Origin: Candidatus Bathyarchaeota archaeon | Lineage (GTDB): Archaea > Thermoproteota > Bathyarchaeia > RBG-16-48-13 > GCA-020355125 | Assembly (NCBI GenBank): GCA_026014905.1 | Contig: JAOZHK010000144.1 | Location: forward strand, 1 to 24,856 | Direction of reading: 5' to 3' | DNA: 24,856 nucleotides | Part shown: one piece after another, positions 250 through 24,416 of the stretch | Layout: each line of letters starts with the position of its first letter | How positions within the stretch are numbered: the first letter of the stretch is position 1 | Notes under the pieces: generated by a model | The model's input: the letters and a program-made list of their open reading frames with translations, nothing else | Told to the model about the DNA's origin: nothing | Database searches by the model: none | Made by a program: the position numbers and the translations under genes

Positions 250-256
250 CGCGCGC
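250..256. repeat. (CG)n tract
   Basis: Seven alternating C/G bases directly abut the aldolase stop codon. This is the first member of the dispersed family described in the findings. Confidence 0.8.
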
Positions 257-310
257 ATGTATCGAAGCATCCGCTAAGTCACACGCGATGTGGTATAGAG
301 TGAGGGATGG

Positions 311-319
311 TTAGCTAGT
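311..319. repeat. GCTAG word between genes
   Basis: TTAGCTAGT lies about ten bases past the stop of the leftward ribbon-helix-helix gene. It belongs to the dispersed CTAG-type word family. Confidence 0.5.
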
Positions 320-327
320 ACGATATA

Positions 328-471
328 TTATTTTCGCAGATAATCTCGTAAAGCTTCTCGGACAACCTCAGAAATAGAGACATAGTGACCATTAGATTGT
401 TCCACAAATTTCTCTAGTTCGAGATACAGCCCTTCCGGAATTGTTAAGCTTTTAAATCCATTTCTTGACAT
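328..471 (-). CDS. Ribbon-helix-helix DNA-binding protein (copy 1), 47 aa
   Basis: This short gene encodes a 47-residue protein, MSRNGFKSLTIPEGLYLE at the start and EVVREALRDYLRK at the end. The layout of a short beta strand (KSLTIPEGL), a first helix, then SISEVVREALRDYL as the second helix is that of a MetJ/Arc/CopG ribbon-helix-helix regulator, which binds DNA as a dimer. A near-identical paralogue lies at 20491-20646, differing at about nine of the 47 shared positions. A TATA-like sequence sits about 27 bases before the ATG, so the mRNA is probably leaderless. It has no obvious toxin partner and could be a free-standing repressor. Confidence 0.85.
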   Translation of the reverse strand: MSRNGFKSLTIPEGLYLELEKFVEQSNGHYVSISEVVREALRDYLRK

Positions 472-492
472 GGCTCAATCAGGCTGGTTGCT

Positions 493-504
493 GTATTAAT
501 AAAC
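493..504 (-). promoter_or_regulatory. TATA box of the RHH gene
   Basis: On the minus strand this reads GTTTATTAATAC, centred about 27 bases before the ATG at 471. That is the spacing expected for an archaeal TATA box with a leaderless or nearly leaderless transcript. Confidence 0.5.
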
Positions 505-646
505 ATTTCTCTTTTTTCTATTAATATTGGTATTTATGCTGTATTGGATACAGATAATGAGTGGATTTTTCAATAGGTCTTAAGGTATGAATAAGGAGTG
601 TTTCGAGGAATGTGTGAATAGACGGGTTATAAACATAATACGTGTG

Positions 647-1477
647 TTACACTGAAAATGTGAGAGCGGCCCGGATATCTGCAATTTGCTGAGTAATTTT
701 CTTTAATTCTTGTGCATATGATTGAACAGCTTTGTTGTGTGTTTGCTCAAGTTTATCGATGAGTTGATGTTCTTCGTAATCTGGATCTATGACAGAGTGA
801 TTGGTAACGGTGTCTTTGATTATACCGTCCTGCATTTGAAAGACGCGAGTAGCCATTTTTGCAACATTTGGATCGTGTGTAACAAGAATGACGGTTACAT
901 TTTCTTGCTTTGAGGATTCAAGTAGGTATCTCATGACTTCACTGGCGGTTTTAGTATCTAGATCACCGGTAGGCTCATCTGCGAGAAGTATTGATGGAGC
1001 ATTTGCTAAGGCTCTAATGATGGCGACTCGTTGTTGTTCTCCACCACTCAACTCATCGGGGCGATGATGGGCACGATCAGTCAATCCCACCATCTCGAGG
1101 AGATGCTCGATTCGAGGCTTCATACCTTTTTTTGGTTTACCGGCAATGACCATGGGCAATTCTACATTTTCATATGCGGTTAAAACAGGAATGAGGTTAT
1201 AAAATTGGAAAATAAATCCAATTTTATTTCTTCGAAGTTGAGTGCGTTCGCGTTCACTGACTTCCGAGATATCGATTTCATCGACATAGACTTTTCCTTC
1301 AGTTGGTTGGTCAAGTGTGCCGATGAGGTTGAGGAGACTAGACTTGCCTGATCCTGACGGACCCATTATCGCAACGACTTCTCCTTCGTTAATTTTCATG
1401 TTCACTCCGCGGAGGGCATTAACGGATATTTTTCCAATACGATAAACTTTTTTTACGTCTTCGACTCGTACCGCCAT
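647..1477 (-). CDS. ABC transporter ATP-binding protein, LolD/MacB type
   Basis: ATPase subunit of a membrane ABC system of the LolD/MacB/FtsE class, which pairs with FtsX/MacB-type permeases. Visible motifs are Walker A GPSGSGKSS (residues 39-47), Q-loop Q91, signature LSGGEQ (143-148), Walker B ILLADEP with catalytic E168, and switch His 201. The core ends near residue 222 and is followed by about 50 extra residues with a charged, coiled-coil-like helix, longer than a plain LolD. GAGGT lies eight bases before the ATG, supporting the start. No permease gene is adjacent within the window, so the partner must lie elsewhere. Function is inferred from family only. Confidence 0.92.
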   Translation of the reverse strand: MAVRVEDVKKVYRIGKISVNALRGVNMKINEGEVVAIMGPSGSGKSSLLNLIGTLDQPTEGKVYVDEIDISEVSERERTQLRRNKIGFIFQFYNLIPVLTAYENVELPMVIAGKPKKGMKPRIEHLLEMVGLTDRAHHRPDELSGGEQQRVAIIRALANAPSILLADEPTGDLDTKTASEVMRYLLESSKQENVTVILVTHDPNVAKMATRVFQMQDGIIKDTVTNHSVIDPDYEEHQLIDKLEQTHNKAVQSYAQELKKITQQIADIRAALTFSV

Positions 1478-1651
1478 TTCGAACGACCTCGTAGTTCCCG
1501 TGTTTCTTAATGTGGAGAAGTATGTTAAAGGAGATAGGTTCTCATTTAATCTTTCTTTTGTTAGGTTTTCTATTTTTTAAAGAATATGATAAGAATGAGT
1601 AGAAGTCTCCTATAGTGAGTTATAGAAATGATATAGATAATAGGTGACTTA

Positions 1652-2125
1652 CTATTTGATGCGTTGGCGTTCACGTTGATTTTCAAGCCATTTCTGCATG
1701 ATCTGCTGAAGTTTTGTAGGGTTTTGTTGAAAGTTGAGTACATACTGTCGGAGAGTATTTTGAAGTTCTAAGATTGGTCGACGGAGATATTTCGTTACGG
1801 AAGGTGGTGGTTGGAACCAGCCATCTTTCGATAATTCGTAAAGTAGCCCAGTTAAATCTGGAATGACTGCACATGCTATCGTTGGTTGCCCGGATTCTAA
1901 TTGAGCAAAGAATCGGTGATGACCATCAATAACGGCGTAAAGTGTGATGTATGGATGTTTTACGACAACGATAGGACGTAGTGATTGTCCGGCTTGTAGC
2001 TGAGTTTTATAGCGGGCAACCCCATTTACGTCGACTTTTGGATCGGCTACGATCTGATCTGTCGGAAGGTCTTCACGATACTTTTCGGGGTAGAGTAAAG
2101 CTTCGAGGAGGTTGGGTCGCTTCAT
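1652..2125 (-). CDS. ParB/sulfiredoxin-like domain protein
   Basis: This 157-residue protein contains LRPIVVVKHP followed by YAVIDGHHRFFAQLESG (about residues 49-80). These are the box I and box II signatures of the ParB/Srx fold, where the DGHHR segment binds nucleotide. It lacks the helix-turn-helix and dimer domains of chromosome-partitioning ParB, so a stand-alone nucleotide-binding or phosphotransfer protein (as in SerK-like or Srx-like members) is more likely than a partition factor. The C-terminal 50 residues are helical and rich in Gln and Arg. It starts 14 bases after the phosphatase-family gene on the same strand with a GGAAA-type ribosome site between, so the two are probably co-transcribed. 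Confidence 0.75.
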   Translation of the reverse strand: MKRPNLLEALLYPEKYREDLPTDQIVADPKVDVNGVARYKTQLQAGQSLRPIVVVKHPYITLYAVIDGHHRFFAQLESGQPTIACAVIPDLTGLLYELSKDGWFQPPPSVTKYLRRPILELQNTLRQYVLNFQQNPTKLQQIMQKWLENQRERQRIK

Positions 2126-2139
2126 TTCAGTTTCCTAAG

Positions 2140-4155
2140 TTATGTTCTGTGAAGTGGACCCTCAAAGAAGTCATACACGACTTTCCCATCAGCTTGGCGT
2201 GGCGGTGAGATGCCCAGCGCATAGCAGAGAGTTGGCGCGACATCAATTTGCCAGATAGGGCTAGCGCGTCGGTATCCCTGTTTGATTCCAGGTCCTTGCA
2301 TTAGAAATATAGCACGATTCCACATCGATGGGATCTGTGTGGTTGGAAGAAAATTGTGGTGAGCGATGATTTCAGTGGATGGTTGAACCGCGGGTAATCG
2401 CTGGAGTTCTTGAACCGAAAGGTTCAAGGCGTTATCTCGATCAAGATCAACATCAGTATAACCGGGTTTAAGATAAAAGAGAACATCTCCGAAGCGGTCG
2501 CCCCATTGCCCGTACGCTTCCGCATCTTCTTTCTTGACAACGAGGGCAATTGGACAGGTGTTGGTCTCGGTATCACGCATGGAGTAAATGGCTTGAAGGA
2601 TTTGGTTCCTAACTGCATCATATTCTTCGATCGGGACGATGCCTTCGGGGTCGCGTCCTTGTAGATTGACATAGACGAAGGTCCGCCACGGATACGCTTT
2701 GGTGTGTTTCCAATCAACTTGTGTTTTCCCTGAGATAGGATCTGTCTGATAGGTTAGTAGCCCATGTTGTATCAGCGGGATACCTACCCAGGCGACTTTG
2801 TATACTGGGATACAGCCATGATCACTGACAACAGTGATGATACTATCCTCTGTGCTGCAGGTATCGATGACTGCGCCTATCAAGTGATCCACATCTTCAT
2901 AGGTACGTGCAAAGCGTTCCCAGCTTAAAGCTGCTTCATGTTCATCATACTGTGGGTTCATGGGATCAATCGATCGTCCTAGCTGATGGTTTATTCCATC
3001 CTGAGTATGGATTTGCACTAAGAGGAGATCAGGATGATAGTGAGTATTCAAGTACTCCGCAGCGCGTATTTGCCAATCTACTTGCATGTCGATACATTCA
3101 AAATAGGTCTCCCAGTCACCTCGGGGAACAGTTGCTCCTGGAAGCTCAAGGCCTTCAATAAACGGTCCGACGTGCTGAAGCAACTCCTCTGCCATACCAT
3201 CGGGAAACGCCCAGCCGGAAGCCATCCAGATATCGGTCCGATAAAGATTTACAGTTTTTCCGTCAGGAGAGAGGTCCGTCAATTTATATTTAAAATAACT
3301 GCGGACAAAGCCTTCGGGGATGTCACGGAAATTGAAACGCTTGAGTGCTGGTGGCATTCGTTTCTCCAATATTTCAAAAACCCAGTCGCTCCATTGACCT
3401 CGTGTTAACCGTGCTATCGGATGAGCGGCATCTTTCTCTCGTGAAAGGAGGAGGGTATCGTATCCATTTCCGCTGGAATCCAGGAGCAGTAAATGATGGT
3501 TGATAGGTGTTGTCGGTTGAGAGTTGGTGTCGGTGCTTATGATCTCCATCCCTCGTTCTGTCCAGATCATAGCCATTAGCGAATTGGATATAGAGACTGT
3601 CGCTTCAAGCAGTGACGAATGTGAGGAGGGAGGATGTGCCCAATCCTGTGCGTCAACTATATGAAGAGGTAAGTCACCACGATGACGGTACCCGGCAGGC
3701 TGAGGATTAGTCGTGTATAGAGCATCATAATCGATGCGCCAATGAGGATCTCGTGGTCCTGTTCCATCAATGAAAATCCCAGTGCGACAGGTGGGAGGGA
3801 ATGAAAGAGGCCACATAATTGAGACCGTTTTTAGTCCTGCTCGTTCTGCAGCATCCCACAGAAACTCCGCATTGGACCAATAGCTTCGGACTGAAAAATG
3901 AACTTTATTGAGGGGTTCTCCGGGCAGATGAATGTGAAAACTCGTTATACCATGAGTGCCTGGCCACGCTCCAGTTGCTAAAGTACACCAATTTGTTGGG
4001 GTATCGCAGGGTAGAGCTGGTAATGATTCGGAATACACTCCATTACGTAGTAGTGAAGCAAAATGGGGTAACCGCCCTTCATTCATAAAACGTTCGAGAA
4101 AGGGCCAATTACCACCATCAAAGCCAATTACAACGAGCTTAGCCAAAGTCTTCAA
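2140..4155 (-). CDS. Alkaline-phosphatase-superfamily phosphodiesterase/pyrophosphatase
   Basis: A 671-residue member of the type I phosphodiesterase/nucleotide pyrophosphatase branch. Expected metal-site and catalytic features are visible: D13 in VIGFDGGNW, the likely nucleophile T52 in the DTPTNWCTLATG segment, a following PGTHGI, then HTQDGINH (D386, H390), VVSDHG (D445, H446) and a late HHN. Such enzymes hydrolyse phosphate mono- or diesters with two metal ions, often zinc. The substrate is not readable. There is no signal peptide, so the protein is probably cytoplasmic. It is the first gene of a likely two-gene unit with the downstream ParB-like gene. Other archaeal members are annotated as predicted AP-superfamily hydrolases. 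Confidence 0.85.
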   Translation of the reverse strand: MKTLAKLVVIGFDGGNWPFLERFMNEGRLPHFASLLRNGVYSESLPALPCDTPTNWCTLATGAWPGTHGITSFHIHLPGEPLNKVHFSVRSYWSNAEFLWDAAERAGLKTVSIMWPLSFPPTCRTGIFIDGTGPRDPHWRIDYDALYTTNPQPAGYRHRGDLPLHIVDAQDWAHPPSSHSSLLEATVSISNSLMAMIWTERGMEIISTDTNSQPTTPINHHLLLLDSSGNGYDTLLLSREKDAAHPIARLTRGQWSDWVFEILEKRMPPALKRFNFRDIPEGFVRSYFKYKLTDLSPDGKTVNLYRTDIWMASGWAFPDGMAEELLQHVGPFIEGLELPGATVPRGDWETYFECIDMQVDWQIRAAEYLNTHYHPDLLLVQIHTQDGINHQLGRSIDPMNPQYDEHEAALSWERFARTYEDVDHLIGAVIDTCSTEDSIITVVSDHGCIPVYKVAWVGIPLIQHGLLTYQTDPISGKTQVDWKHTKAYPWRTFVYVNLQGRDPEGIVPIEEYDAVRNQILQAIYSMRDTETNTCPIALVVKKEDAEAYGQWGDRFGDVLFYLKPGYTDVDLDRDNALNLSVQELQRLPAVQPSTEIIAHHNFLPTTQIPSMWNRAIFLMQGPGIKQGYRRASPIWQIDVAPTLCYALGISPPRQADGKVVYDFFEGPLHRT

Positions 4156-4259
4156 TTCCAGAGGATATATTTTTTGAAAAAGAAATTGATATCAAGTATT
4201 GTTTGCTGGATAAAAAACTTTAAGATATGAATGAGTCCACAGTCATAAAGGGGCGTGAG

Positions 4260-4583
4260 ATGTTCGGAATCGTTATGGTAACCTGTCCGCTTGATTTCGT
4301 GGAAATTATTACTACTTCATTGTTGAAGAAGCGATTAGCCGCAGCGATTAATATCCTTCCAACTATTCATAGCTGGTATTGGTGGGAGAATTCTATCCAC
4401 TCTACTAAAGAGGCCCTGTTACTTGTGAAAACATTAACGTCTGAATTTCCGAAACTTGAACAGACTGTGAGAGAGTTACACCCATATCAAGTTCCAAGCA
4501 TAGTCATGCTTCCTATCGTCGCCAGCTCAGATGATTATGCCAATTGGATCTCTCAGGAAGTGAATGCTAGCCCGAAGACATAA
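4260..4583 (+). CDS. cutA: Divalent-cation tolerance protein CutA
   Basis: The 107-residue product has the CutA pattern: an N-terminal strand GIVMVTCP, KKRLAAAINILPTIHSWYWW, a helix, then RELHPYQVPSIVMLPI and a final DYANWI helix. CutA forms a trimer with a ferredoxin-like fold and is linked to copper and other divalent-metal tolerance, though its biochemical role is unclear. An earlier in-frame ATG at 4227 exists, but a TTTAAG-type TATA element just before it would put the transcript start near 4244. The ATG at 4260 follows a G-rich stretch and matches where the family begins. The end overlaps the convergent DUF99 gene by 17 bases. Confidence 0.9.
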   Translation: MFGIVMVTCPLDFVEIITTSLLKKRLAAAINILPTIHSWYWWENSIHSTKEALLLVKTLTSEFPKLEQTVRELHPYQVPSIVMLPIVASSDDYANWISQEVNASPKT

Positions 4584-5181
4584 GCTCCTTCAAACTTTGT
4601 TGATAATGTTTCAAGAGAGTACGGGCTAAAAGACGGGCGACTCGAATCGGTTCAGGAACTGCGCCAAAAATAGTGAACTTATTCACCACGCCTTTGACCT
4701 GATCGAGTGATAGTCCAAAGTATCGTGTGAATATAATTTTTCCAGTCTTGAGCGTAACGGGGATACGCTTTCCATTCTGCCGATATGTATTAAGCCGTTG
4801 TTGCCAAGTAGTTGGAAAAAGCTCATGAAAATATTGATCTAGCCCTTCAGAGGCATTATATGTAACGCAGATAAGAGGGATGGAGCTTGCCTCGTAAACT
4901 TGCTGTAAATCAATAACATTAAACCAGCTGATGACACAGCCATTTAATATTATAACATTGATATCTTGGCGACGCAGTTTTTCAATCAAAGCAAGAACTT
5001 GTTCAGTCGCATCCACGCCGCCAACAGTTACTAATGAATGGGAAAAACCATCAACAATTCGATCAGCACGCATGACAACTCCAGCGAGAAAAGATTTCTG
5101 AGATATGCCTTTCACGAAACTTTCAGCAATACCTAGTGCGCGAATTCCTGTTTTGTGCACGTGGAAAGGCATTGGTGTCAC
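4567..5181 (-). CDS. DUF99 (UPF0215) family protein
   Basis: The opening KTGIRALGIAESF is the hallmark of DUF99, an archaeal family with an RNase H-like core related to endonuclease V. Further matches are DRIVDGF, TEQVLALI, VIILNGCVISWFNVID and the end region GAVPEPIRVARLLA. The family has no established activity; a nucleic-acid function is suggested by the fold. The start may be GTG at 5181 or the ATG at 5172, which has GTGA five bases before it. It follows the alkyltransferase gene by 14 bases on the same strand, so the two may form a small DNA-repair unit. Confidence 0.88.
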   Translation of the reverse strand: MTPMPFHVHKTGIRALGIAESFVKGISQKSFLAGVVMRADRIVDGFSHSLVTVGGVDATEQVLALIEKLRRQDINVIILNGCVISWFNVIDLQQVYEASSIPLICVTYNASEGLDQYFHELFPTTWQQRLNTYRQNGKRIPVTLKTGKIIFTRYFGLSLDQVKGVVNKFTIFGAVPEPIRVARLLARTLLKHYQQSLKELMSSG

Positions 5182-5195
5182 ATATCATCGATAGG

Positions 5196-5549
5196 TCAAT
5201 GGAACTCAAAAAGCACATGGACGAAATTCAGAATCTTCGCGTTCTTATCTTCTCCCTTTATCTGAATGCCTTCTTGACGTAATAGTTTGATTTTCTCTGG
5301 TGTTCCTCCTCCAAATTTCCCCACCGATCCATCGGTTTTAACTACACGATGGCAAGGGACGATTGGTGCATAGGGATTGGCCCCTACAGCGTTACCGACG
5401 GCTCGATAAGCACGGCAATTGAGGGCATGGGCGAGAAATTTATAGGTTGTCACTTTTCCGATAGGGATTAGTTTCATGAGCTCAATGATTTTAGTGTGAA
5501 ATGTCGAATCAACTTCTCGAATCTTTTGGACTTGCTCAAGGACGGTCAT
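5196..5549 (-). CDS. ogt: Methylated-DNA--protein-cysteine methyltransferase (short form)
   Basis: Suicide repair protein that moves the alkyl group from O6-alkylguanine in DNA to its own cysteine. The active site IVPCHRVV is intact (C66). It is preceded by the helix-turn-helix segment GKVTTYKFLAHAL and the recognition helix YRAVGNAVGANP, with the Asn hinge at residue 53. Only the C-terminal catalytic domain is present: 117 residues, without the N-terminal RNase H-like domain of Ogt/Ada. Because Cys rather than Trp or Ala is at the active site, it is a true transferase rather than an alkyltransferase-like protein. It is the upstream member of a probable pair with the DUF99 gene. Confidence 0.93.
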   Translation of the reverse strand: MTVLEQVQKIREVDSTFHTKIIELMKLIPIGKVTTYKFLAHALNCRAYRAVGNAVGANPYAPIVPCHRVVKTDGSVGKFGGGTPEKIKLLRQEGIQIKGEDKNAKILNFVHVLFEFH

Positions 5550-5636
5550 AGGAGATCATCTCATTCGTTTTCCATCATGTTGATGGTATCTTAAGTATTA
5601 AATGATTGGTGAATTTATTATTGTTTCGGGATATAA

Positions 5637-5654
5637 CGCGCGCACGTCAACTAG
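5637..5654. repeat. (CG)n tract next to a CTAG word
   Basis: CGCGCGC at 5637-5643 is followed a few bases later by ACTAGT. The pair lies between the end of the transglutaminase-like gene and the start of the alkyltransferase gene. Confidence 0.7.
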
Positions 5655-5712: not shown

Positions 5713-6783
5713 CTATAAGATAATGAAAATGATGATTAAAGCGGCAATTATCACAAGAATTTCTATTGAATGGGAAAAGATATCGGGGAATTGAAAACTT
5801 TCATCTTCTTCACTAATTTGATACATGAATGTATCCGTGTTTTTTTCATTACCATTCTGATCTTGTGCGCGGATCCAGTATTCCACTTGAGTCCCTTGCG
5901 CGTGGGGGGGAATTGTAGCCTGAAAGATCGATCCTTCAATATTCGCCAGGTCAATTGTAGTGGTTACATCATTTTGGGTATATAAAAGCGAGACATCTTC
6001 AAGTGCCGAAATAGTGTGAAAGACGTTTACCGTGATCGTGACATCCGTGGTCTCACTTGGGTGACTTGGTTCTTGTTGGATATCGGATATATATAATGAA
6101 CCGGTAACAAAAGCCTCCCAATTCCCATCGCGGTACTCATCAGGGGTCCATCCTAACGGATTATTTTCTCCGGTAGATTCAACCCAGATCCAACCATAGT
6201 CTCGGCCATCATCAAGCAGATCCCATTTGATAACATTCGGATAGTCAGGCAGCCAAATGAGAAGAGCAGCATGGTCACTTGTCAATACCATTGCAGTGTC
6301 ATAGCCGGCACCTTCATAGATTGCGGAACAAAGAAATGCAAGGTCTTCGCAATCGCCAATTGCCACTGTATTTGTATCAAAATTAATTCCTGCGGCCATA
6401 TCGTCTGCGTTCCATGCCCATTCAATTTGAGCCGAACCTCCCATGCGAACATTATCTTCATCATACCCATATTCAGTCCATTGCTGTACAAAACGAAGAA
6501 TCGCTTCGGCTCGAGTAACCGTATTGGGATAGTATTCAATGAACTCCTTTCCCCACTCAAACGCTTGATCTTGCCATTCTCCTATGGCCTCATATGCTAA
6601 ATTTGGCATAAAACCAGCGGTTCCCAAAGCGTAATCGCGGGTATAGTCCCAGGCATCATACCAAAACCCATCCTTGTTAACGAAAGCCGATGGTTGAGGA
6701 CTCGTGAACACCACAGGAACTCCTATTAAAAGAAGAGTTCCGCATACTATGAGCAAACTGGCTAGACCAGAGTTGATCCTCAT
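5713..6783 (-). CDS. Membrane-anchored transglutaminase-like protease-fold protein
   Basis: The 356-residue protein has an N-terminal hydrophobic segment (about residues 7-27, signal anchor or signal peptide) and a transglutaminase-like domain with the triad C145 (in GDCEDLAF), H171 (in TSDHAALL) and probably E202 (in WVEST). An Ig/fibronectin-like beta domain follows (about 235-325), with a C-terminal hydrophobic helix (338-356). The catalytic face should lie outside the cell. Such proteins cleave or cross-link peptides or glycoproteins; the substrate is unknown. It starts nine bases after the stop of the DUF350-like gene, so the two form an operon. The domain call is firm, the precise activity is not. 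Confidence 0.85.
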   Translation of the reverse strand: MRINSGLASLLIVCGTLLLIGVPVVFTSPQPSAFVNKDGFWYDAWDYTRDYALGTAGFMPNLAYEAIGEWQDQAFEWGKEFIEYYPNTVTRAEAILRFVQQWTEYGYDEDNVRMGGSAQIEWAWNADDMAAGINFDTNTVAIGDCEDLAFLCSAIYEGAGYDTAMVLTSDHAALLIWLPDYPNVIKWDLLDDGRDYGWIWVESTGENNPLGWTPDEYRDGNWEAFVTGSLYISDIQQEPSHPSETTDVTITVNVFHTISALEDVSLLYTQNDVTTTIDLANIEGSIFQATIPPHAQGTQVEYWIRAQDQNGNEKNTDTFMYQISEEDESFQFPDIFSHSIEILVIIAALIIIFIIL

Positions 6784-6792: not shown

Positions 6793-7275
6793 TCAAAGGG
6801 GTAATGATAGGCTCGCATGAACGATAAGACCAATGAAAATCTGATAACAGAACAGGAATATCCCAACAGCTTGAGGGGACTGGTTGATCTCATCTAAATC
6901 AACCCCAAAAAGCTCCACCTTTGCAAATAGCTTATAAAATAACCAGCCAATCGCGAGACTCACACCAAAAGCTACTAGGACAACGAGAAATCGTGATACA
7001 TTGATGAAGGAAGCCGCCGAAGCAACATTGCCCTGAAAAATTGGATTAAGCGATGACCCATGAATGATTAATCCTGTAAAAACTATAAATCCGCTGACGA
7101 ATAGAGAGATAGCAGTCCCATCTCCACGAATTCGATCAAATTCCCTGATTTCCGTCGTGACATGAACCATTGCTTTGATACTGACGAGCCCCACTAAGAG
7201 ACAAACTAGACTTGTACCCACGATTCCAAGAGTCCAATAGAGGATTCCTAACAACGTTGAAGTTGGCATTGCCAT
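6793..7275 (-). CDS. DUF350-like four-helix membrane protein
   Basis: This 160-residue protein has four predicted membrane helices (roughly 8-33, 55-73, 89-113 and 135-156). It looks like an internal duplication: each half has an acidic stretch followed by a helix ending in a similar motif, FIVFTGLIIHGSS in the first half and YQIFIGLIVHASL in the second. That arrangement resembles DUF350 proteins, which have two such repeats and no assigned function. It is transcribed just ahead of the transglutaminase-like gene (nine bases apart), so the two may act together at the membrane. The family assignment is from pattern only. Confidence 0.65.
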   Translation of the reverse strand: MAMPTSTLLGILYWTLGIVGTSLVCLLVGLVSIKAMVHVTTEIREFDRIRGDGTAISLFVSGFIVFTGLIIHGSSLNPIFQGNVASAASFINVSRFLVVLVAFGVSLAIGWLFYKLFAKVELFGVDLDEINQSPQAVGIFLFCYQIFIGLIVHASLSLPL

Positions 7276-7568
7276 GATTAATCACGTGTTTAATAGCTGA
7301 GGGTATAGACCTAGATCACCTCATGATCCTGATATCAGAAAGATATCTTGTCGACCCCAATTTTCTCTCTATGTTATTTGAACAATCCATTTAAACTCAT
7401 TGTATCAAGCAGATAACGCTGGCTAAATGAGATCATGAATGAACGGGGAGTCGAATTAACATCCATGTGGCAAAGGTTCTCCAAGTCTCGCGTACGCAAA
7501 ATACATGTACGCATAATGAAAAACATTTTAGTAATAATGACAGATATATCGACAGTTGGTGAAGAAAT
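7276..7568. promoter_or_regulatory. Divergent intergenic region
   Basis: This region separates the leftward DUF350-like operon from the rightward small gene at 7569. It holds two GATATC words five bases apart near 7332-7348 and an alternating purine-pyrimidine stretch with TCGCGTACGC and ATACATGTACGC (about 7483-7516). An AGATATATC sequence near 7542-7550 could be a TATA box for the rightward gene. I see no gene here. Confidence 0.4.
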
Positions 7569-8618: not shown

Positions 8619-8664
8619 CTAGTTAGTCTGTTTACACGCGCGTACGCGTAACGCGATTGCGCGT
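8619..8664. repeat. CTAG word plus complex CG-rich alternating stretch
   Basis: TAGCTAGTTAG overlaps the SHOCT stop codon. It is followed by ACACGCGCGTACGCGTAACGCG and then TTGCGCGTC, the densest CG-rich alternating stretch in the window. Confidence 0.65.
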
Positions 8665-8782: not shown

Positions 8783-8789
8783 GCGCGCG
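8783..8789. repeat. (CG)n tract
   Basis: GCGCGCG lies 18 bases beyond the stop of the leftward HAD gene. It mirrors the tract beyond the convergent SHOCT gene. Confidence 0.7.
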
Positions 8790-9585: not shown

Positions 9586-9591
9586 CGCGCG
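9586..9591. repeat. (CG)n tract
   Basis: CGCGCG upstream of the HAD gene. Confidence 0.6.
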
Positions 9592-9615: not shown

Positions 9616-9667
9616 CCAATACGCGCGCGCGTTATTGTGAGGAGGTTTAGTATTACGCGCGTATTGG
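9616..9667. repeat. Inverted pair of CG tracts
   Basis: CCAATACGCGCG at 9616-9627 is matched exactly by its reverse complement CGCGCGTATTGG at 9656-9667, 28 bases apart. The left tract is itself part of the palindrome ACGCGCGCGCGT. The pair lies just past the stop of the small zinc-ribbon gene at 9699. Confidence 0.75.
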
Positions 9668-10489: not shown

Positions 10490-10501
10490 ACGCGCGCGCG
10501 T
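10490..10501. repeat. (CG)n palindrome
   Basis: ACGCGCGCGCGT, a perfect 12-base palindrome, lies about 75 bases upstream of the S30e start. Confidence 0.8.
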
Positions 10502-11362: not shown

Positions 11363-11367
11363 TCTCA

Positions 11368-11373
11368 GCGCGC
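11368..11373. repeat. (CG)n tract
   Basis: GCGCGC starts six bases past the OB-fold stop codon. Confidence 0.45.
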
Positions 11374-11486: not shown

Positions 11487-11524
11487 ACTACGCGCATTCA
11501 CGTAGAAGGTCGGAATTTATTAAA

Positions 11525-11533
11525 CGCGCGCGC
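11525..11533. repeat. (CG)n tract
   Basis: CGCGCGCGC lies 45 bases beyond the flavodoxin stop codon. Confidence 0.75.
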
Positions 11534-12061: not shown

Positions 12062-12400
12062 TGGTAAGACATCATGCTTGTATATTGTGTTGTAATAATA
12101 AGAGTAGCGCGTGTAAGTACCCGATGCACTCTCGTTTAAAAGGAAAATCATTGCTAGGTTAAAACCATAATGCAAACCGGTCGAATCCTTCAAACATTCA
12201 CGGCGCGCGCGCGTACCTACAGAATACACAGCCCAGCATGGTTGCACGCGTAGTGGAAAGATTTTGATATTGCTTTAGTGGAGATTGAGCATTGCAATGC
12301 CTATGTACGTCGAGTTAAGAAAGAGGGAGTTGGGTTATAAACAGCTATATCTTAATGTCTGGATTCAATAATTTATCTATCAAATGGAGCAAATAACGAT
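12062..12400. other. Divergent intergenic region with a CG tract
   Basis: Separates the flavodoxin and ADP-ribosylglycohydrolase genes. It holds an 11-base GCGCGCGCGCG tract at 12203-12213, a GCACGCGTAG word near 12241, the flavodoxin TATA-like sequence, and AT-rich sequence before 12401. I see no gene in it. Confidence 0.5.
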
Positions 12401-13610: not shown

Positions 13611-13616
13611 CGCGCG
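13611..13616. repeat. (CG)n palindrome
   Basis: CGCGCG inside the palindrome CACGCGCGTG, between the convergent ADP-ribosylglycohydrolase and medium-chain reductase genes. A shorter TGCGCGT lies at about 13664. Confidence 0.65.
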
Positions 13617-13677
13617 TGGGATGCGTCTCATGATTAAGTGTTGTCTTTGTTGATTATTTGTACATGCGCGTTTGGGA

Positions 13678-14743: not shown

Positions 14744-15331
14744 TTATTGATAGTAGGCTTTGATATGCGACCGTGTAAGATAATAGAGGATCACAATGTT
14801 GATGAGGATGCTGATCAGGCTTCCCGGGAGATTAAAAATCCCCGTGACGACGCCAATCACAGCGAGGATCATCGTGATGATGCGCGCCCACCACTTCCCG
14901 GACCACAACCCCCATGTCATAATAAATCCAAGTACCGCAACGATCAGTAATACCAGACCAATACCTGCTAAGAACGCGGTCGTGAGGGCAAAGAATTGGA
15001 CACTGGTGAACGTGGATGCCCAGGGAATCTGCTGAAACGCGTCTGCTAACTCTTCCTCAGGAATAAGATCCCAGCCACCCGCAGCAAAAAACGCACTCAA
15101 CAACAGTAAAGCAACACTACCTAACAACGTGAAAAAACTGGTGATGCCTTGTAAGATCGCTAAAAGCGTAACACCGCCAGGACGTGATCTGCCTTGAACA
15201 GGAGGTACGGAAGGCCTCACCGGTATCGAGCGAGTTGAAGGCATGACGGGAGCTCCACATGAAGGACAAAACGCACTCGCTGCCGGTAACACGACACCAC
15301 ATTTCTCACAAGAGGACACGTATTCCACCAA
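14744..15331 (-). CDS. Zinc-ribbon membrane protein, four helices
   Basis: The N-terminus carries a zinc ribbon, CEKCGVVLPAASAFCPSCG (two CxxC pairs), then a proline-rich linker (PSTRSIPVRPSVPPVQ). RPGGVTLLAILQ follows, which opens a four-helix membrane region resembling DUF2127-type proteins. Function is unknown; the ribbon should face the cytoplasm. The start is TTG (15331) or GTG (15328). A TATA box (TTTATATGC, minus strand) centred about 25 bases upstream suggests a leaderless transcript from here. It lies between two medium-chain reductases. A single six-base GCGCGC (14882-14887) occurs within this intact gene and encodes Ala-Arg, so it is probably unrelated to the intergenic tracts. Confidence 0.78.
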   Translation of the reverse strand: MVEYVSSCEKCGVVLPAASAFCPSCGAPVMPSTRSIPVRPSVPPVQGRSRPGGVTLLAILQGITSFFTLLGSVALLLLSAFFAAGGWDLIPEEELADAFQQIPWASTFTSVQFFALTTAFLAGIGLVLLIVAVLGFIMTWGLWSGKWWARIITMILAVIGVVTGIFNLPGSLISILINIVILYYLTRSHIKAYYQ

Positions 15332-16415: not shown

Positions 16416-16474
16416 AATAGCTAGCTAGCTTTGGTATGCATGGAATTGGATCTACATAGGTATGGAAGCGCGCG
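16416..16474. repeat. CTAGCTAG word and (CG)n tract
   Basis: ATAGCTAGCTAGCTTT (about 16419-16434), nearly three units of CTAG, lies upstream of the reductase TATA box. GCGCGCG at 16468-16474 lies 12 bases past the nitroreductase stop codon. Confidence 0.65.
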
Positions 16475-17100: not shown

Positions 17101-17367
17101 CGTTTCATTCACTTGTTGAAAATTATGGCCTGACAAACATAAAAGGATTCAGCGTGGGTAGCTAGATAGATATATTGGAAGAAACCGCGCGTACGTATTC
17201 TTCTTCCCTAGCCATTTAAATGAGGTAGTCAGCTACTGACTTTTGGGAGTTGAGCATGACGCGCGCGCGCAGGAAACATGGCGCACCATTGCTCTTGATC
17301 GTGCTCATTCTGACTAAATAGTAACTATTAGTTGAAAGATATTGAAAGTACTGTTTACGCTCTGCCA
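17101..17367. other. Intergenic region with two CG tracts and CTAG words
   Basis: Holds GTAGCTAGATAG (about 17160), CGCGCG (17186-17191, running on to TACGTA), CCCTAGCC (about 17206) and an 11-base CGCGCGCGCGC (17260-17270). An open frame on the minus strand at 17314-17499 has no family resemblance and I do not call it a gene. Confidence 0.55.
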
Positions 17368-17448
17368 ATGGCGGCGACATATCCCATCCATCCCCTTTTT
17401 TTCTATTACATCAATTTTGTTACCTGGAGGATTCAAATAACTAGCTAG
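17368..17448. repeat. Imperfect repeat, left copy
   Basis: Begins ATGGCGGCGACATATCCC, then CATCCATCCCC, seven T's and CTATTACATCA, later TGGAGGA, and ends with AACTAGCTAG. It matches 17807-17880 across its length, and the two flank the TIGR04076 gene. The pyrimidine run could act as a terminator, with GGAGGA and CTAG words on its downstream side. Confidence 0.6.
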
Positions 17449-17904: not shown

Positions 17905-17930
17905 GCGCGCGCGTTTCTAACTTATATCTA
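17905..17930 (+). promoter_or_regulatory. (CG)n tract and TATA box of the luciferase-like gene
   Basis: GCGCGCGCG (17905-17913) is followed by TTTCTAACTTATATCTA, whose TATA core is about 25 bases before the ATG at 17951. This implies a leaderless mRNA with the CG tract just upstream of the promoter. Confidence 0.55.
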
Positions 17931-18875: not shown

Positions 18876-18937
18876 CCTCCTTTTTTCACGTAGGCGCGCG
18901 CGACGCTGCAGGATTCTGCAACCCGATGCAAGGAGGA
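18876..18937. terminator. T-rich end signal with a CG tract inside an inverted repeat
   Basis: TCCTCCTT (18875-18882), running into TTTTTT, is the exact reverse complement of AAGGAGGA (18930-18937). The enclosed 47 bases include the GCGCGCGCG tract at 18894-18902. It starts about 20 bases past the luciferase-like gene, so it may act as its terminator. Confidence 0.45.
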
Positions 18938-19099: not shown

Positions 19100-19323
19100 C
19101 ATAAGGAAAAGGTAATGACGATCATGTATAAAGACCAGTGGTGTAACTCATTTCTTGGACAGATAATCAGGACAGATTGGTCCCGGAGAAATGTTTTCTT
19201 CGAAATATCTTATAAAGCTTATTTCACGACCGCGGCTTCTTCAAATTTTAACTAGCTAAAATTAATTCTCTCCTTATAAATCCCAAAGTAATTAATTAAT
19301 GCGTTCTTTGTAATAATTTTATC
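19100..19323. other. Upstream region of the radical SAM gene
   Basis: Contains the open continuation of the preceding frame, an AACTAGCTA word (about 19250), and CTTATAAAT at 19273-19281, which is a good TATA box for the gene at 19324 with a leader of about 20 bases. Confidence 0.4.
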
Positions 19324-20208: not shown

Positions 20209-20260
20209 ACTAGCTAACTAGTACGTTAGAATATTTTCTCAGTTATTGTATGAACAAACA
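20209..20260. repeat. CTAG words after the radical SAM gene
   Basis: AAACTAGCTAACTAGTACG starts at the stop codon, giving two CTAG units nine bases apart. Confidence 0.5.
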
Positions 20261-20311: not shown

Positions 20312-20452
20312 AGGGTATTAGTTCTGACTGTCAAATGTATCAAATGTAAGAAACAAGGTTCACTGAGTCTGAATCATTATAAGACAAATGGACATCGTTA
20401 TCAGTACTTTGTGAGCACGCGCGTATGTATCAACCAGGTGTTGATTTTCTAA
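20312..20452 (+). pseudogene. Zinc-finger-like gene remnant
   Basis: The open frame contains KCIKCKKQGSLSLNHYKTNG then HRYQYFVS, resembling small archaeal zinc-finger proteins of the type CPKCGKKGxLxxxxYKxxGKxYxYFVV. No ATG, GTG or TTG precedes the conserved part, and the resemblance stops exactly at the ACGCGCGT tract (20417-20424). The second zinc-binding pair is missing. I read it as a decayed or interrupted gene downstream of a promoter-like element; a genuine tiny gene with a non-standard start is less likely. Confidence 0.35.
20418..20423. repeat. (CG)n tract
   Basis: CGCGCG inside the palindrome ACGCGCGT, at the end of the zinc-finger-like remnant. Confidence 0.6.
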
Positions 20453-20675: not shown

Positions 20676-20691
20676 CATACGCGCGCGTATG
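20676..20691. repeat. 16-base CG palindrome
   Basis: CATACGCGCGCGTATG is a perfect palindrome 29 bases past the stop of the RHH gene. Flanking GTTC and GAAC extend the symmetry with a two-base offset. Confidence 0.8.
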
Positions 20692-20798: not shown

Positions 20799-20995
20799 AT
20801 GTCTCTAAATCAAATTGATTATCATATTCACTCAAACCATTCGTGTGATGGTAACGACTCAATTATAGACTTGTGTAAAAGAGCTCTGAAGATCGGAATT
20901 GAAGAAATTGGGTTTTCTGAACACATAGATTTTGATCCACGAGATTGGGGGTACGGGCGCGCGCGTATTTTCTTTACGATAGGTTATGCGAATAA
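20799..20995 (+). pseudogene. PHP-domain phosphatase, N-terminal remnant interrupted by a CG tract
   Basis: The start encodes a clear PHP (histidinol-phosphatase-type) N-terminus: IDYHIHSNHSCDGNDSIIDL with the HxH metal motif, then KIGIEEIGFSEHIDFDPRDW and GYG. At 20958-20965 eight bases, CGCGCGCG, follow the GGG codon. If they are skipped, the frame continues YFLYDRLCE, which fits the family's GYxYFDYERYxE block, then stops at 20993-20995. With the tract present, translation runs out of family similarity and stops at 21017. The other 200 or so residues of a PHP enzyme are absent. The gene is therefore both interrupted and truncated. Confidence 0.75.
20957..20965. repeat. (CG)n tract inside the PHP remnant
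   Basis: GCGCGCGCG; an eight-base insertion explains the shift in the PHP reading frame. Confidence 0.7.
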
Positions 20996-21307: not shown

Positions 21308-21354
21308 CTTGCCAGTTGGTTTTAACTCATAGCATTTTTGGAGGTGAATTTCCG

Positions 21355-21507
21355 GTGAAACAATATGAATGTGTGCAAGTAGGGCACCATAAGAACATCA
21401 GTAAAACAATTCAGGAATGGCAACTCAATGGATGGCGACTTCATACGTACCAAGCACAAGGATCGCCAACTATGGTCAATCATTACTTGCTGTTTGAAAA
21501 AGACTAA
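21355..21507 (+). CDS. DUF4177-like small protein, 50 aa
   Basis: From the GTG at 21355 the product begins MKQYECVQVGHHKNISKTIQ, then EWQLNGWRLHTYQAQG and ends NHYLLFEKD. The pattern of a strand, a helix, 'LNxxGWxLxxY' and a final strand is that of DUF4177. GGAGGTGA eight bases before the GTG is the best ribosome site in the window and decides this start over the ATG 20 codons upstream. Function is unknown for the family. Confidence 0.72.
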   Translation: MKQYECVQVGHHKNISKTIQEWQLNGWRLHTYQAQGSPTMVNHYLLFEKD

Positions 21508-21560: not shown

Positions 21561-21584
21561 GATTTAGCGCGCTAGCACTAAATC
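21561..21584. terminator. Hairpin with a CG/CTAG loop between convergent genes
   Basis: GATTTAG (21561-21567) and CTAAATC (21578-21584) pair exactly around the ten-base loop CGCGCTAGCA, which combines the two dispersed words. It lies between the DUF4177-like gene and the convergent lumazine-binding-like gene and may end both transcripts. The AT-rich sequence to its left resembles that at 24370-24410. Confidence 0.5.
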
Positions 21585-22013: not shown

Positions 22014-22108
22014 GTAAACACCTAGCTAGCTATAATATGATTAAATGTTATAAGTATTAATTTCACGCTCGCGTAATCTGGTGCACATTTTAGGAGAAAG
22101 GATATCAG
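22014..22108 (-). promoter_or_regulatory. CTAGCTAGC word within the 5' region of the lumazine-binding-like gene
   Basis: CCTAGCTAGCTATAATATG (plus strand, from 22021). Read on the minus strand it is a TATA-like sequence, the CTAG word, then AGGTG and the ATG. Confidence 0.5.
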
Positions 22109-22332: not shown

Positions 22333-22527
22333 TTAATCAACGTAATGGACTTATTCTTTATATAAGTATACATTAATATGTACTGATAATATTTATATTT
22401 TGTCTATATATTATATATAGAAACAATATCAACAGTTTTAGCTCAACATGAACCAACACGCGCGTAAGCGTACAAGTAGACAACACTCTTAAATGCTAAT
22501 GAGAGAATCACAGAGACGTGATGATAA
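22333..22527. other. AT-rich upstream region with a CG tract
   Basis: Strongly AT-rich with several TATA-like words between 22355 and 22425. CGCGCG (22459-22464) is followed by TAAGCGTACAAG and then AGACAACACTCTTAAA, which also occurs upstream of the second SnoaL copy (about 23833). GTGATGAT before the ATG is the likely ribosome site. Confidence 0.45.
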
Positions 22528-22962
22528 ATGTCATTAGAAGAGAATAAAGCACTTGTTCGCAGATTTGTCGAAGCCTATAATAATCGAAACCTGGATGTAT
22601 TTGACGAGTTATTAGCACCAAATTATTTTGATCACACCAGTCAAGTCGATAGAGAAGGCCTCAAACAATTAATGAATATGGCGTTCACAGCTTTCCCCGA
22701 TTTTCAGGAAGCAATTCACGATATCATTGCGGAAGGCGATGAAGTGTGGGCTCGAATTACTTTTACAGGAACCCATAGAGGCGAATGGATGGGTATAGCT
22801 CCTACAGGCAAGACCGTAACCACGGAGATGGTTGACATCTTTCGCATTGAAAATGGTAAACTCGCAGAATATCGGGACGTCAATAACAATGTTGATTTCC
22901 TTAAAAAATTAGGGCTCATCGAATACACCGAACAGGGCAAACAACTGTTACCACAAGAATAG
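22528..22962 (+). CDS. SnoaL-like (ester-cyclase-type) protein, copy 1
   Basis: A 144-residue NTF2-fold protein of the SnoaL/polyketide-cyclase group. Typical blocks are MSLEENKALVRRFVEAYNNR, YFDHTSQVDREGLKQLM, AFPDFQEAIHDIIAEGDEVW, FTGTHRGEWMGIAPTGKTV and DIFRIENGKLAEYRDVNNN. The conserved DH and the GTH-x-G-E/x-x-x-G-I-A-P-T-G-K region are intact. Related proteins are aldol cyclases or hydrolases of unknown substrate. It has a tandem paralogue at 23880 that carries two frameshifts, and the upstream bases are also similar, so the unit was duplicated with part of its control region. Confidence 0.87.
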   Translation: MSLEENKALVRRFVEAYNNRNLDVFDELLAPNYFDHTSQVDREGLKQLMNMAFTAFPDFQEAIHDIIAEGDEVWARITFTGTHRGEWMGIAPTGKTVTTEMVDIFRIENGKLAEYRDVNNNVDFLKKLGLIEYTEQGKQLLPQE

Positions 22963-22970: not shown

Positions 22971-22977
22971 GCGCGCG
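22971..22977. repeat. (CG)n tract
   Basis: GCGCGCG starts nine bases past the stop of SnoaL copy 1. Confidence 0.7.
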
Positions 22978-23170
22978 TAGATTAAGTTCATTGAGTAAAT
23001 CTGTGAGATCGCCTACCATCGTGTACTCGTTCCTTAATTCACAAAGTATTTGCCAGCAAATGATTATTGCACATTTTTAATTACACAATAAGTACTTTTC
23101 CATTCACTAACAGAATGTACGAAGCAATTTGTACATACAAGAATAGCATTCAGAGTTTTTAGTGCTATGA

Positions 23171-23202
23171 CCAAATATATAACTAAGACCCCCCAGCTAG
23201 CA
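23171..23202 (+). promoter_or_regulatory. Repeated promoter-like element, copy 2
   Basis: CCAAATATATAACTAAGACC, then CCCCAGCTAGCATCTAGG. The TATA part is about 40 bases before the nitroreductase ATG, and the CTAG words sit between them. Confidence 0.55.
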
Positions 23203-23216
23203 TCTAGGAAAGTAAA

Positions 23217-23719
23217 ATGAGTTGTATCCAACAAGTATTAACCCGCAGGAGTGTCAGAAAATACAAGCCTGAACCGGTAAGCGAGGAAGTGCTGAAGAAC
23301 ATTTTAGAAGCGAGGAGACTTGCGACTTCAACTACGAATCGTCAACGCGCGCGCGGCATTTTTTTGTCGTAAGAGATAAGGTAGAAAAAGACGCCTGTGA
23401 CTATCAGGGATTTAATCGATGGGTCAATGGAGCAGCTTTTGTTGTTGTAGGTTTTTACCGGCAATCGGAAGTCATGATTGAAAAACTGAGCTTGATGGAT
23501 GTCACGATTGCCCTGCAAAACATGGTTATCGCAGGTTGGATGCAAGGAGTGAGTTCATGTTGGATGGGCGCTTTTAATGAACCAAAACTTAAAGAAACAC
23601 TCAACCTGCCAGTCGACGCAAGGCTAGTAGGAGCCATAGCTTTTGGAATACCCGATGAAAAACCAAGACAACCTCCAAAGAAACCGATAGACGAAATTAT
23701 TCATTTTGATAAATGGTAA
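23217..23719 (+). pseudogene. Nitroreductase interrupted by an 11-base CG tract
   Basis: The first frame (23217-23345) encodes a standard nitroreductase start: MSCIQQVLTRRSVRKYKPEP, then LEARRLATSTTNRQ. Eleven bases, CGCGCGCGCGG (23346-23356), follow, and the protein resumes in another frame with HFFVVRDKVEK and continues without a break through IALQNMVIAGWMQGVSSCWM and LVGAIAFGIPDEKP to a stop at 23717-23719. In intact relatives the join reads N-R/Q-Q-P-W-H-F, which needs six bases there. The tract therefore replaces PW and adds five bases, shifting the frame. The rest of the gene shows no decay. Confidence 0.85.
23346..23356. repeat. (CG)n tract inside the nitroreductase gene
   Basis: CGCGCGCGCGG between the CAA and CAT codons of an otherwise conserved NQPWHF block. 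Confidence 0.85.
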
Positions 23720-23782
23720 ATGTGGTATTTCGGGGATAATACAGTGAGCTGGCTAGGTGTTAAGCCAGCATTGACAAGTCAA

Positions 23783-23810
23783 CAAATATATAACTAAGAC
23801 TCACCCTACC
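23783..23810 (+). promoter_or_regulatory. Repeated promoter-like element, copy 3
   Basis: CAAATATATAACTAAGACTC followed by ACCCTACC, nearly identical to the element at 23171 over 18 bases. It lies about 90 bases before SnoaL copy 2. Confidence 0.55.
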
Positions 23811-23879
23811 AAGCAACGGTCAAGATCTCTCTAGACAACACGCTTAAAGGTTAACCAGAGAGTTAAAGAAATGATGATC

Positions 23880-24312
23880 ATGTCATTAGAAGAGAATAAA
23901 GAAATTGTTCGTAATTTAAGTGAAGCGTTTAATAACAAAGACTTAGTCGCAATAGGTGAATTCATAGCCCTCGACTTTGTGGACCATGACATAAACATTG
24001 AAGGGGGGAAAATTACAAACAATTCATTAATAGATTTTTCATAGGATTTCTGATGTGTATCAGACGCTATTAGACATGATTGCTGAAGAGAATAGGGTTG
24101 TTATGTATTTCACGTTTACTGGAACACATACAGGTGTATTCATGGGAGTGGCTCCTACTGGCAAGAAGATTACATTACGTGCAATTGTGACATGGCGTAT
24201 CGTTGATGGTAAGATTGTCGAAAAAGCATCACAGGTGTGGGACTTTATCGATATATACAAGCAACTGGGTATCATCGAGTACACGGAATATGGCAAGAAA
24301 CTCTTTCAGTAA
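23880..24312 (+). pseudogene. SnoaL-like protein, copy 2, with two frameshifts
   Basis: A paralogue of the gene at 22528, starting with the same MSLEENK. The frame changes twice: at the G-run 24003-24008, where one extra G would restore GENYKQFINRF, and near 24050, where TTTCTGAT would read FPD with one more C. The last part, MIAEENRVVMYFTFTGTH to IIEYTEYGKKLFQ, is well conserved. Adding the two missing bases gives 144 residues, exactly the length of copy 1. Only two single-base losses, one in a homopolymer, mean either very recent inactivation or sequencing/assembly errors. Confidence 0.8.
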
Positions 24313-24378
24313 GAAGAGGTGTATGAACGATAACTAGCCAGGAGTAAACGATCATAGAATAATTTCTCTGAATTTTCT

Positions 24379-24416
24379 AATTTCTAAAATACAATTTGTT
24401 TAGAAATTTCGCGCGC
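24379..24416. terminator. AT-rich hairpin abutting a (CG)n tract
   Basis: AATTTCTAAA (24379-24388) pairs exactly with TTTAGAAATT (24399-24408) around a ten-base loop, and CGCGCGC (24410-24416) follows two bases later. It lies about 65 bases past the SnoaL copy 2 stop. Its left part resembles the sequence at 21510-21555, after the DUF4177-like gene. Confidence 0.5.

Follow-up and report, generated by a model that had tools for sequence, protein, structure and literature searches.

Self-complementary tracts in the spacers of a Bathyarchaeia contig and its relatives, and their possible origin as scars of DNA end joining

The DNA analysed here is a 24,856-bp stretch from a Candidatus Bathyarchaeota archaeon (assembly GCA_026014905.1, contig JAOZHK010000144.1, positions 1 to 24,856), referred to below as the window. 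A hand list of 23 open reading frames (ORFs), which we treat as its genes, covers 15,620 bp and leaves 9,236 bp of spacers with a GC fraction of 0.392. Scattered through these spacers are short alternating C/G runs, the (CG)n tracts that are the subject of this report, together with a second type of tract, (AGCT)n; all were located directly in the window sequence and are given without strand (Table 1). An earlier note on this DNA had listed 25 alternating C/G runs, and all 25 of 25 were found where it placed them, with lengths of 6-11 bases; one further run, absent from its list, brings the total to 26. The note had also described the runs as nearly all outside intact genes and as missing from the packed block at 650-5550. 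The gap is real, with no run between 256 and 5637, and 25 of the 26 runs lie outside the listed genes, with one inside; the word 'intergenic' was loose, however, as the runs at 20957 and 23346 coincide with gene remnants or their edges. The single run inside a listed gene is probably ordinary coding sequence.

The run counts were compared with 300 dinucleotide-preserving shuffles of the window spacers and genes. The spacers hold 25 runs of at least six bases against 2.27 expected (shuffle maximum 8), 16 of at least seven against 0.53, and 9 of at least nine against 0.05, which bears out the claim that few would arise by chance. The genes hold one run of at least six bases, against 2.42 expected. 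Shuffling synonymous codons within 21 ORFs (15,132 bases, 300 shuffles) gave an expectation of 2.25 and a maximum of 6, again with one observed, and the genes are therefore not clearly depleted. With a mechanical ORF caller in place of the hand list, 23 runs fell in 7,473 bp of spacer (2.2 expected) and three in ORFs (2.6 expected). The window spacers are enriched in CG runs, and depletion of the genes is not clear. Two outcomes that the earlier note had named as counting against its view, namely no spacer excess over a shuffle and an equal density in genes, were checked on the window, and neither occurred.

The window runs also prefer one phase. In spacers, T comes next in 29 of the 34 cases where a core ends in G, and A(CG)3T, A(CG)4T and A(CG)5T occur five times, once and twice, respectively, against one A(GC)3T. 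Most often the runs are 6 or 7 bases long, and none exceeds 11. They often belong to longer alternating purine-pyrimidine stretches; stretches of at least 12 bp number 17 in spacers and one in genes. The (AGCT)n class is represented by three tracts against 0.3 expected, a small number, and CGCGCGCG occurs 15 times, about 600 per Mb.

Table 1. Tracts and tract-associated gene remnants in the window
Feature	Coordinates	Strand	Context
(CG)n tract, 7 bp	250..256	.	spacer
(CG)n tract, 7 bp	5637..5643	.	spacer
(CG)n tract, 6 bp	8637..8642	.	within 18-bp alternating purine-pyrimidine stretch 8633-8650
(GC)n tract, 7 bp	8783..8789	.	
(CG)n tract, 6 bp	9586..9591	.	first of three inside 76 bp
(CG)n tract, 10 bp	9622..9631	.	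A(CG)5T
(CG)n tract, 6 bp	9656..9661	.	TA(CG)3TA
(CG)n tract, 10 bp	10491..10500	.	A(CG)5T
(GC)n tract, 6 bp	11368..11373	.	
(CG)n tract, 9 bp	11525..11533	.	beside flavodoxin-like gene 11579-12055 (Pfam match below cut-off)
Alternating C/G run	12203..12213	.	
(CG)n tract, 6 bp	13611..13616	.	within 18-bp alternating stretch 13601-13618
GCGCGC	14882..14887	.	in intact ORF 14744-15331, sole run in a listed gene; gapless alignment across it in four homologous stretches
(GC)n tract, 7 bp	16468..16474	.	homology begins 5 bp later (G001), 12 bp later (G216)
(CG)n tract, 6 bp	17186..17191	.	
(CG)n tract, 11 bp	17260..17270	.	
(GC)n tract, 9 bp	17905..17913	.	
(GC)n tract, 9 bp	18894..18902	.	
(CG)n tract, 6 bp	20418..20423	.	
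(CG)n tract, 8 bp	20680..20687	.	centre of 16-bp palindrome
(GC)n tract, 9 bp	20957..20965	.	PHP-domain gene fragment stops here
GCGCGC	21567..21572	.	additional run
(CG)n tract, 6 bp	22459..22464	.	
(GC)n tract, 7 bp	22971..22977	.	SnoaL-like gene homology (22529-22958, G219) stops 12 bp short
(CG)n tract, 10 bp	23346..23355	.	inside nitroreductase gene remnant; frame differs across tract
(CG)n tract, 7 bp	24410..24416	.	
(AGCT)n tract	16418..16430	.	second self-complementary class
(AGCT)n tract	17441..17448	.	
Short (AGCT)n tract	19252..19258	.	20 bp ahead of radical-SAM homology block
Short (AGCT)n tract	20210..20216	.	radical-SAM homology to G220 (81%) stops 1 bp short
(AGCT)n tract	22022..22032	.	
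Short (AGCT)n tract	23195..23201	.	15 bp ahead of nitroreductase remnant
PHP-domain gene, N-terminal remnant	20814..20956	+	PF02811 E 3.2e-9; ORF about 260 residues in G217
Nitroreductase gene remnant	23217..23719	+	two frames, tract between; both pieces match PF00881

Two window tracts break genes. In the nitroreductase remnant, the upstream piece aligns with homologues as far as a conserved glutamine, and the downstream piece resumes in another frame. Of nine distinct homologues that align on both sides, six have exactly two residues at the tract site, and in the remaining three the matching pieces lie further apart. From this spacing and the frame change it follows that about six bases were replaced by about eleven, so that local loss and insertion in once-intact sequence is seen in this one case. 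At the second site, the PHP-domain fragment stops at its tract, and the ORF of the sole homologue seen, in the relative G217 (G numbers designate genomes of the class), continues beyond it. The tract is absent from the homologous unbroken sites at both 23346 and 20957, the latter judged from one homologue; these before-states are approximate, the homologues being about 70% identical at best. Other homology boundaries also lie close to tracts: that of the intact nitroreductase gene (16486-17136) starts 5 bp after a CG tract, and a radical-SAM block is bounded by two short AGCT tracts.

The same signal occurs in relatives of the window. Its gene at 2140-4155 matches two Bathyarchaeota metagenome-assembled genomes, at 69% (G001) and 61%, and its protein at 5713-6783 has the closest copy in G216 (55%) among 256 class genomes searched; G001 and G216 belong to one family of seven genomes compared. 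By raw counts, made without composition correction across these 256 genomes, G216 has the most CGCGCGCG (339 in 2.0 Mb); G217 has 42, and G218 and G219, of the same family, have 1 and 3. In a 400-kb sample of the 1.98-Mb G216 genome, spacer runs of at least eight bases number 71 against 0.9 expected, and in G001 spacers such runs number 9 against 0.1. Sampled spacers of G182, G055, G232 and G215 also show an excess. Runs of at least six bases were absent from small sampled spacers of G002, G214 and G211 and occurred once each in G068 and G236, and no CG run of at least eight was present in 12.1 kb of G217 spacer, 2.3 kb of G219 and 3.2 kb of G220, the last two offering very little sequence. 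In the family of the window's nearest relatives, three of six sampled genomes show the spacer excess (G216, G001 and G215).

A separate pattern was seen in G204, G213 and G063, where AGCTAGCT stands far above TCGATCGA (203/0, 180/18 and 157/7) and CGCGCGCG is scarce (0, 5 and 14). In small samples of G204 and G213, AGCTAGCT falls within ORFs, and its excess in the three genomes probably has a different cause.

The enrichment concerns a class of self-complementary tandem repeats with a period of 2 or 4, not a single repeat. In G216 spacers the CG class counts 71 against 0.6 expected and the AGCT class 49 against 4.0; the corresponding values in G001 are 38 against 0.4 and 126 against 3.3. Non-self-complementary period-4 repeats, taken together, reach 1.1 to 1.6 times expectation in the window, G216 and G001 (259 against 213 in G216). 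Among dinucleotide runs, CG counts 123 against 18 in G216, compared with 89 against 80 for (AT)n, 33 against 25 for (AC)n and 65 against 45 for (AG)n, and the last three show little or no excess in G001 too. In G182 and G055, (ATGC)n replaces (AGCT)n as the second enriched self-complementary repeat (4 against 0.6 and 4 against 0.3, respectively).

Phase is also constrained, and in G001 and G215 so is size. Among G001 spacer runs, lengths 4 and 5 are under expectation (201 against 246 and 43 against 55) and length 6 is at expectation (14 against 12), while lengths 8, 9 and 10 number 30, 17 and 15 against 0.6, 0.2 and 0, with only two runs of at least 11. G215 shows the same 8-10 bp cluster in small numbers. 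The strongly preferred phase in three relatives is A(GC)nT, opposite to the A(CG)nT of the window. In G001, A(GC)nT occurs 11 times at n=2 (20 expected), twice at n=3 (0.9), 21 times at n=4 (0.04), 10 times at n=5 (0.002) and once at n=6; G216 has 14 A(GC)4T and 11 A(GC)5T. The opposite phase is represented in G001 by 42 A(CG)2T and a single (CG)n with n of at least 3 between A and T, against 31 A(GC)4-5T.

The CG tracts carry no common flanking sequence. None of the CG flanks shares in-register sequence (0 of 46 in the window, 0 of 181 in G216, 0 of 154 in G001 and 0 of 35 in G215), and few AGCT flanks do (0 of 6, 0 of 96, 2 of 352 and 6 of 130, in the same order); overlaps among the random positions inflate the control rows of this test for G216 and G001.

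Trends relative to genes come from the relatives, as the window has too few tracts to show them. In G216, G001 and G215, CG density reaches its minimum, or nearly so, within the 25 bp ahead of start codons. In G216 it is 0.15 per kb there, about 3 per kb 50-100 bp before starts and, over the 25 bp that directly follow stops, 3.3 per kb; the excess directly after stop codons is weak in G001 and not seen in G215. Convergent spacers carry more CG tracts per kb than divergent ones, at 2.05 against 1.05 in G216, 1.52 against 0.67 in G001 and 0.67 against 0.29 in G215 (counts of 23 against 20, 27 against 16 and 4 against 3, over unequal lengths). These positions fit tolerance outside promoters better than a promoter role.

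We compared G001 with G215, whose 51 kb of aligned sequence, out of 563 and 212 kb, is 87% identical. Blast of the sequences flanking 99 G001 tracts had shown homology to G215 stopping at tracts. The breakpoint set comprises 46 informative homology ends at 43 distinct places, with the tract near L045 13980 serving two ends. We left out matches shorter than 150 bp or less than 82% identical, as well as 48 of 85 overlapping matches and any end with under 60 bases remaining in either sequence. A tract was counted at an end if it started up to 12 bp beyond it or overlapped it by up to 14 bp, and control positions were matched for distance to genes. By this measure 15 of the 46 ends have a tract in G001 (3.34 at matched positions), 9 in G215 and 21 in either genome. 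The AGCT class accounts for 11 against 2.41 in G001 and 9 against 2.46 in G215, and the CG class for 4 against 0.98 and 0 against 0.51. Other period-4 repeats are not enriched at the ends (5 against 4.9 in G001 and 6 against 4.75 in G215).

Tracts were found at 13 of 24 ends without colinear continuation, at 5 of 17 colinear ends and at 3 of 5 with too little sequence to tell. Among the 13, the tract is present in one genome only in 12. Retained alignments span none of the CG spacer tracts of G001 and end at four of them; of the (AGCT)n spacer tracts they span seven and end at six. The clearest example is a 310-bp G001 segment (L159 7047-7358), 94% identical to G215, which lies between two 9-bp GC tracts with homology stopping at both.

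We propose that the tracts are palindromic filler scars of Ku-independent DNA end joining, a reading to which we give an even chance. Joining of broken ends would leave a short self-complementary filler, here mostly A(CG)3-5T and in relatives A(GC)4-5T or (AGCT)2-3. In the proposed route, a template-independent polymerase would put the same short GC-rich tail on any 3' end. Two tailed ends could then anneal only if the tail were self-complementary: it must pair with an identical tail and therefore be its own complement, with enough GC pairs to hold. Fill-in and ligation would leave a single copy of the palindrome at the joint. Such scars would persist mainly where nothing essential was broken, accumulating in spacers and dead genes and then decaying by substitution. 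Sequences one transition away from a tract are in excess, but so are transversion neighbours, in part because windows that overlap tract edges enter the counts, and this comparison does not discriminate. The excess itself, its specificity for self-complementary units, the preferred phase, the unique flanks, the breakpoints of one genome pair and the two gene-breaking cases in the window together suggest this origin. Among the roles offered by the earlier note, the breakpoint data and the broken genes favour that of a local insertion product.

Joining by Ku appears unlikely. Ku (PF02735) was found in 0 of the 6 genomes with a sampled spacer excess, whose completeness is not stated, and in 54 of 256 genomes overall, and on this ground we set aside Ku/LigD non-homologous end joining (NHEJ). 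Ku is present in G217, whose sampled spacers have no CG runs of at least eight. Among genomes with at least 100 CGCGCGCG by raw count, 2 of 16 have Ku, compared with 52 of 240 others, so there is no positive association.

By analogy, the replicative primase PriSL is a candidate enzyme. Double-strand break repair in archaea has been described as unclear, and in Saccharolobus islandicus, where no Ku homologue is known, PriSL is reported to combine terminal transfer, strand annealing over 2-4 GC pairs and Ku-independent microhomology end joining (PMC12019639, from the parts of the paper used here). The likeness lies in an archaeal, Ku-free route with terminal transfer, GC annealing and small insertions; the difference is that about 85% of the Saccharolobus indels are 1-2 bp, whereas the scars here would be about 8-12 bp and self-complementary (PMC12019639, same parts). 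The route here would therefore be a variant. In the portion of PMC3898472 used, the PolDom of LigD from bacterial NHEJ likewise joins ends by annealing two self-complementary 3' overhangs, although it is a Ku/LigD polymerase and the overhang belonged to the crystallised substrate, not to a tailing product. DRT3b makes an alternating dinucleotide, poly(dCdA), without a nucleic-acid template, the protein serving as template, but it is a defence reverse transcriptase and its product is not self-complementary (CG)n at DNA joints (PMC13174585, as far as the part used describes it). A prokaryotic survey of Z-DNA patterns compared alternating purine-pyrimidine runs with a segment-wise null and found an excess in few genomes, including Thermofilum pendens; its section 3.6 draws no link to breakpoints or self-complementary units (PMC4060949). 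In the titles and opening lines of abstracts that our literature searches listed, we found no description of tracts like those reported here.

A broader version of the proposal is tentative: some Bathyarchaeia may use a Ku-free 'universal sticky end' joining, in which a polymerase would add the same self-complementary tail to every 3' end, letting any two ends anneal, and a lineage-specific palindrome would mark each joint. In the window lineage that palindrome could, equally tentatively, be A(CG)nT, and in its relatives A(GC)nT or (AGCT)n, which would make the genome a readable record of its breaks. If this were true, a Ku-free repair route could be tested from sequence alone through the palindrome at each joint, rearrangements in uncultured archaea would become countable and datable, and a new polymerase activity would be indicated. 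Should the tracts prove not to mark joints, there is still a lineage-specific palindrome with a preferred phase, recurring across the spacers, that none of the repeat classes tested explains.

Several observations weigh against an end-joining origin. The breakpoint test covers one genome pair and 46 ends, 25 of which have no tract near in either genome, and its CG-only signal is small: of the four ends in G001, the single 310-bp segment supplies two and the border of a dispersed repeat another. Alignments continue across seven (AGCT)n spacer tracts of G001, as counted above, three of nine aligned (AGCT)n spacer tracts are identical in G001 and G215, and a small repeat family in these two genomes has (AGCT)n at its ends. 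At the protein level, a cut-gene test gave no clear excess: 3.0% of tract flanks scored (36 of 1,193) against 1.9% of controls (46 of 2,436), and a good many of the 36 belong to tracts inside apparently intact ORFs. In the window, only two of the 26 runs lie in recognisable gene remnants, the PHP case with its single homologue. Mechanically called ORFs of G216 also show an excess (16 runs of at least eight against 1.3). Some non-self-complementary classes are raised in G216 (ACGC 17 against 2.2, AAAG 40 against 18), and in small numbers G182 has about twice the expected AC and AG runs and G232 three times the expected AC runs. Neither the window nor G216 shows the 8-10 bp clustering; in G216, lengths 6-10 are about level (31, 21, 26, 22 and 17, with 3 at 11). 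Finally, the joining enzyme is itself inferred.

An unlikely alternative is that the tracts are recombination or cassette sites, at which a recombinase would cut and paste gene-sized segments, much as an integron acts at attC sites. The 310-bp G001 segment between its two tracts has the look of such a cassette, as do a SnoaL-like stretch of G001 (L081 about 11015-11495) with AGCTAGC on each side and the radical-SAM block of the window. The left edge of the 310-bp segment, however, is a GC tract in G001 and an AGCT tract in G215, so that the 'site' is not one sequence, and the nitroreductase remnant keeps both halves in place around a small local replacement.

It is rather improbable that selection maintains the tracts in spacers as methylation sites or as sites bound by a chromosome-organising or regulatory protein. 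HIP1 of cyanobacteria is an over-represented palindrome of comparable kind. Palindromic form, a preferred phase and the limited 8-10 bp size in G001 and G215 would suit such sites. The aligned spacers of G001 and G215 contain nine (AGCT)n tracts and no CG tract, and the identity of three of the nine, compared with 16% of identical 10-column spacer windows, points the same way. Against these stand the low density before starts and the roughly twofold convergent over divergent density in G216, G001 and G215, the difference in phase between the window and its relatives, and the near absence of CGCGCGCG from G218 and G219 of the same family. The earlier note's suggestion of protein-binding sites is thus disfavoured, there being no promoter preference in relatives, an opposite phase there, and three of nine aligned tracts identical.

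That pre-existing (CG)n tracts act as fragile sites, forming Z-DNA or other structures and causing breaks where they lie, we regard as very improbable. Z-DNA is mutagenic in yeast and human cells according to the part of PMC6957503 drawn on here, and window tracts continue into alternating purine-pyrimidine stretches. Yet at both gene-breaking window sites the unbroken homologues lack the tract, at 12 of the 13 tract-bearing break ends noted above it is in only one of the two genomes, and (AGCT)n is not alternating purine-pyrimidine. The idea of Z-DNA boundary marks fares in a mixed way: some tracts do lie at segment boundaries, but (AGCT)n does not alternate, and the A before GC in relatives breaks the alternation.

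Microsatellite slippage of CG dinucleotides, tolerated in spacers only, has little chance in our view. The tracts are concentrated in spacers and consist of tandem dinucleotides, with both odd and even lengths, and the lengths in G216 and the window show no gap below 8; we rate slippage slightly higher than we otherwise would because the length clustering is not seen in these two. The bimodal lengths in G001, its long A(GC)4-5T beside a commoner A(CG)2T that is almost never extended, and the little-raised (AT)n, (AC)n and (AG)n of G216 argue against it. Monotone length decay with growth from the commonest seed fails in G001 and G215, and its length part is unclear in G216 and the window. Phase and repeat-type specificity speak against simple slippage, as does length in G001 and G215.

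Other explanations can be treated more briefly. A general enrichment of palindromes through hairpin-templated mutation was rejected, since G216, G001 and G215 have about as many aperiodic palindromes as expected (100 against 88 of at least 10 bp in G216), with 16 against 6.3 of at least 10 bp in the window. A transcription-factor, promoter or terminator role was rejected for want of a promoter preference in relatives, and with a post-stop excess confined to G216 and, weakly, G001. Termini of miniature inverted-repeat transposable elements or other mobile elements do not fit the unique CG flanks, and the (AGCT)n-ended repeat family accounts for few tracts. REP- and ERIC-type extragenic palindromes are tens of bases long, a repeated sequence with a hairpin; the core here is 6-11 bp and flanks are not shared. 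Filled-in restriction ends, in which palindromic overhangs are duplicated, are disfavoured for CG, as no GCGC or CGCG stands at the unbroken homologous sites of 20957 and 23346; such an origin is possible for some (AGCT)n tracts, one 5.3-kb G001 insertion being at CTAG.

A few further observations concern repeats and genes around the tracts. A dispersed repeat of about 120-670 bp, composed of modules (L077 13177-13846, with copies in G001 and G215), has several of its modules starting or ending at (AGCT)n. SnoaL-like genes or remnants are clustered in the window: 22528-22962 and the fragment 24055-24312 match PF07366, 21615-22013 is similar by eye, and 23880-24312 is split without a tract at the split. 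The unlisted stretches 7548-7790, 8247-8432 and 21337-21462 show protein-level similarity to relatives (up to 79%) and are gene remnants or small genes. The ADP-ribosylglycohydrolase gene 12401-13432 may have been acquired by horizontal transfer; among the best 120 of its 1,766 matches, named relatives are mostly Chloroflexota/Anaerolineae (about 60-66%), and copies at 91-94% come from metagenome sources. The DUF350 protein at 6793-7275 adjoins the 5713-6783 protein, which has no Pfam match and is transglutaminase-like by eye, and the two are also adjacent in G216, G217 and G219.

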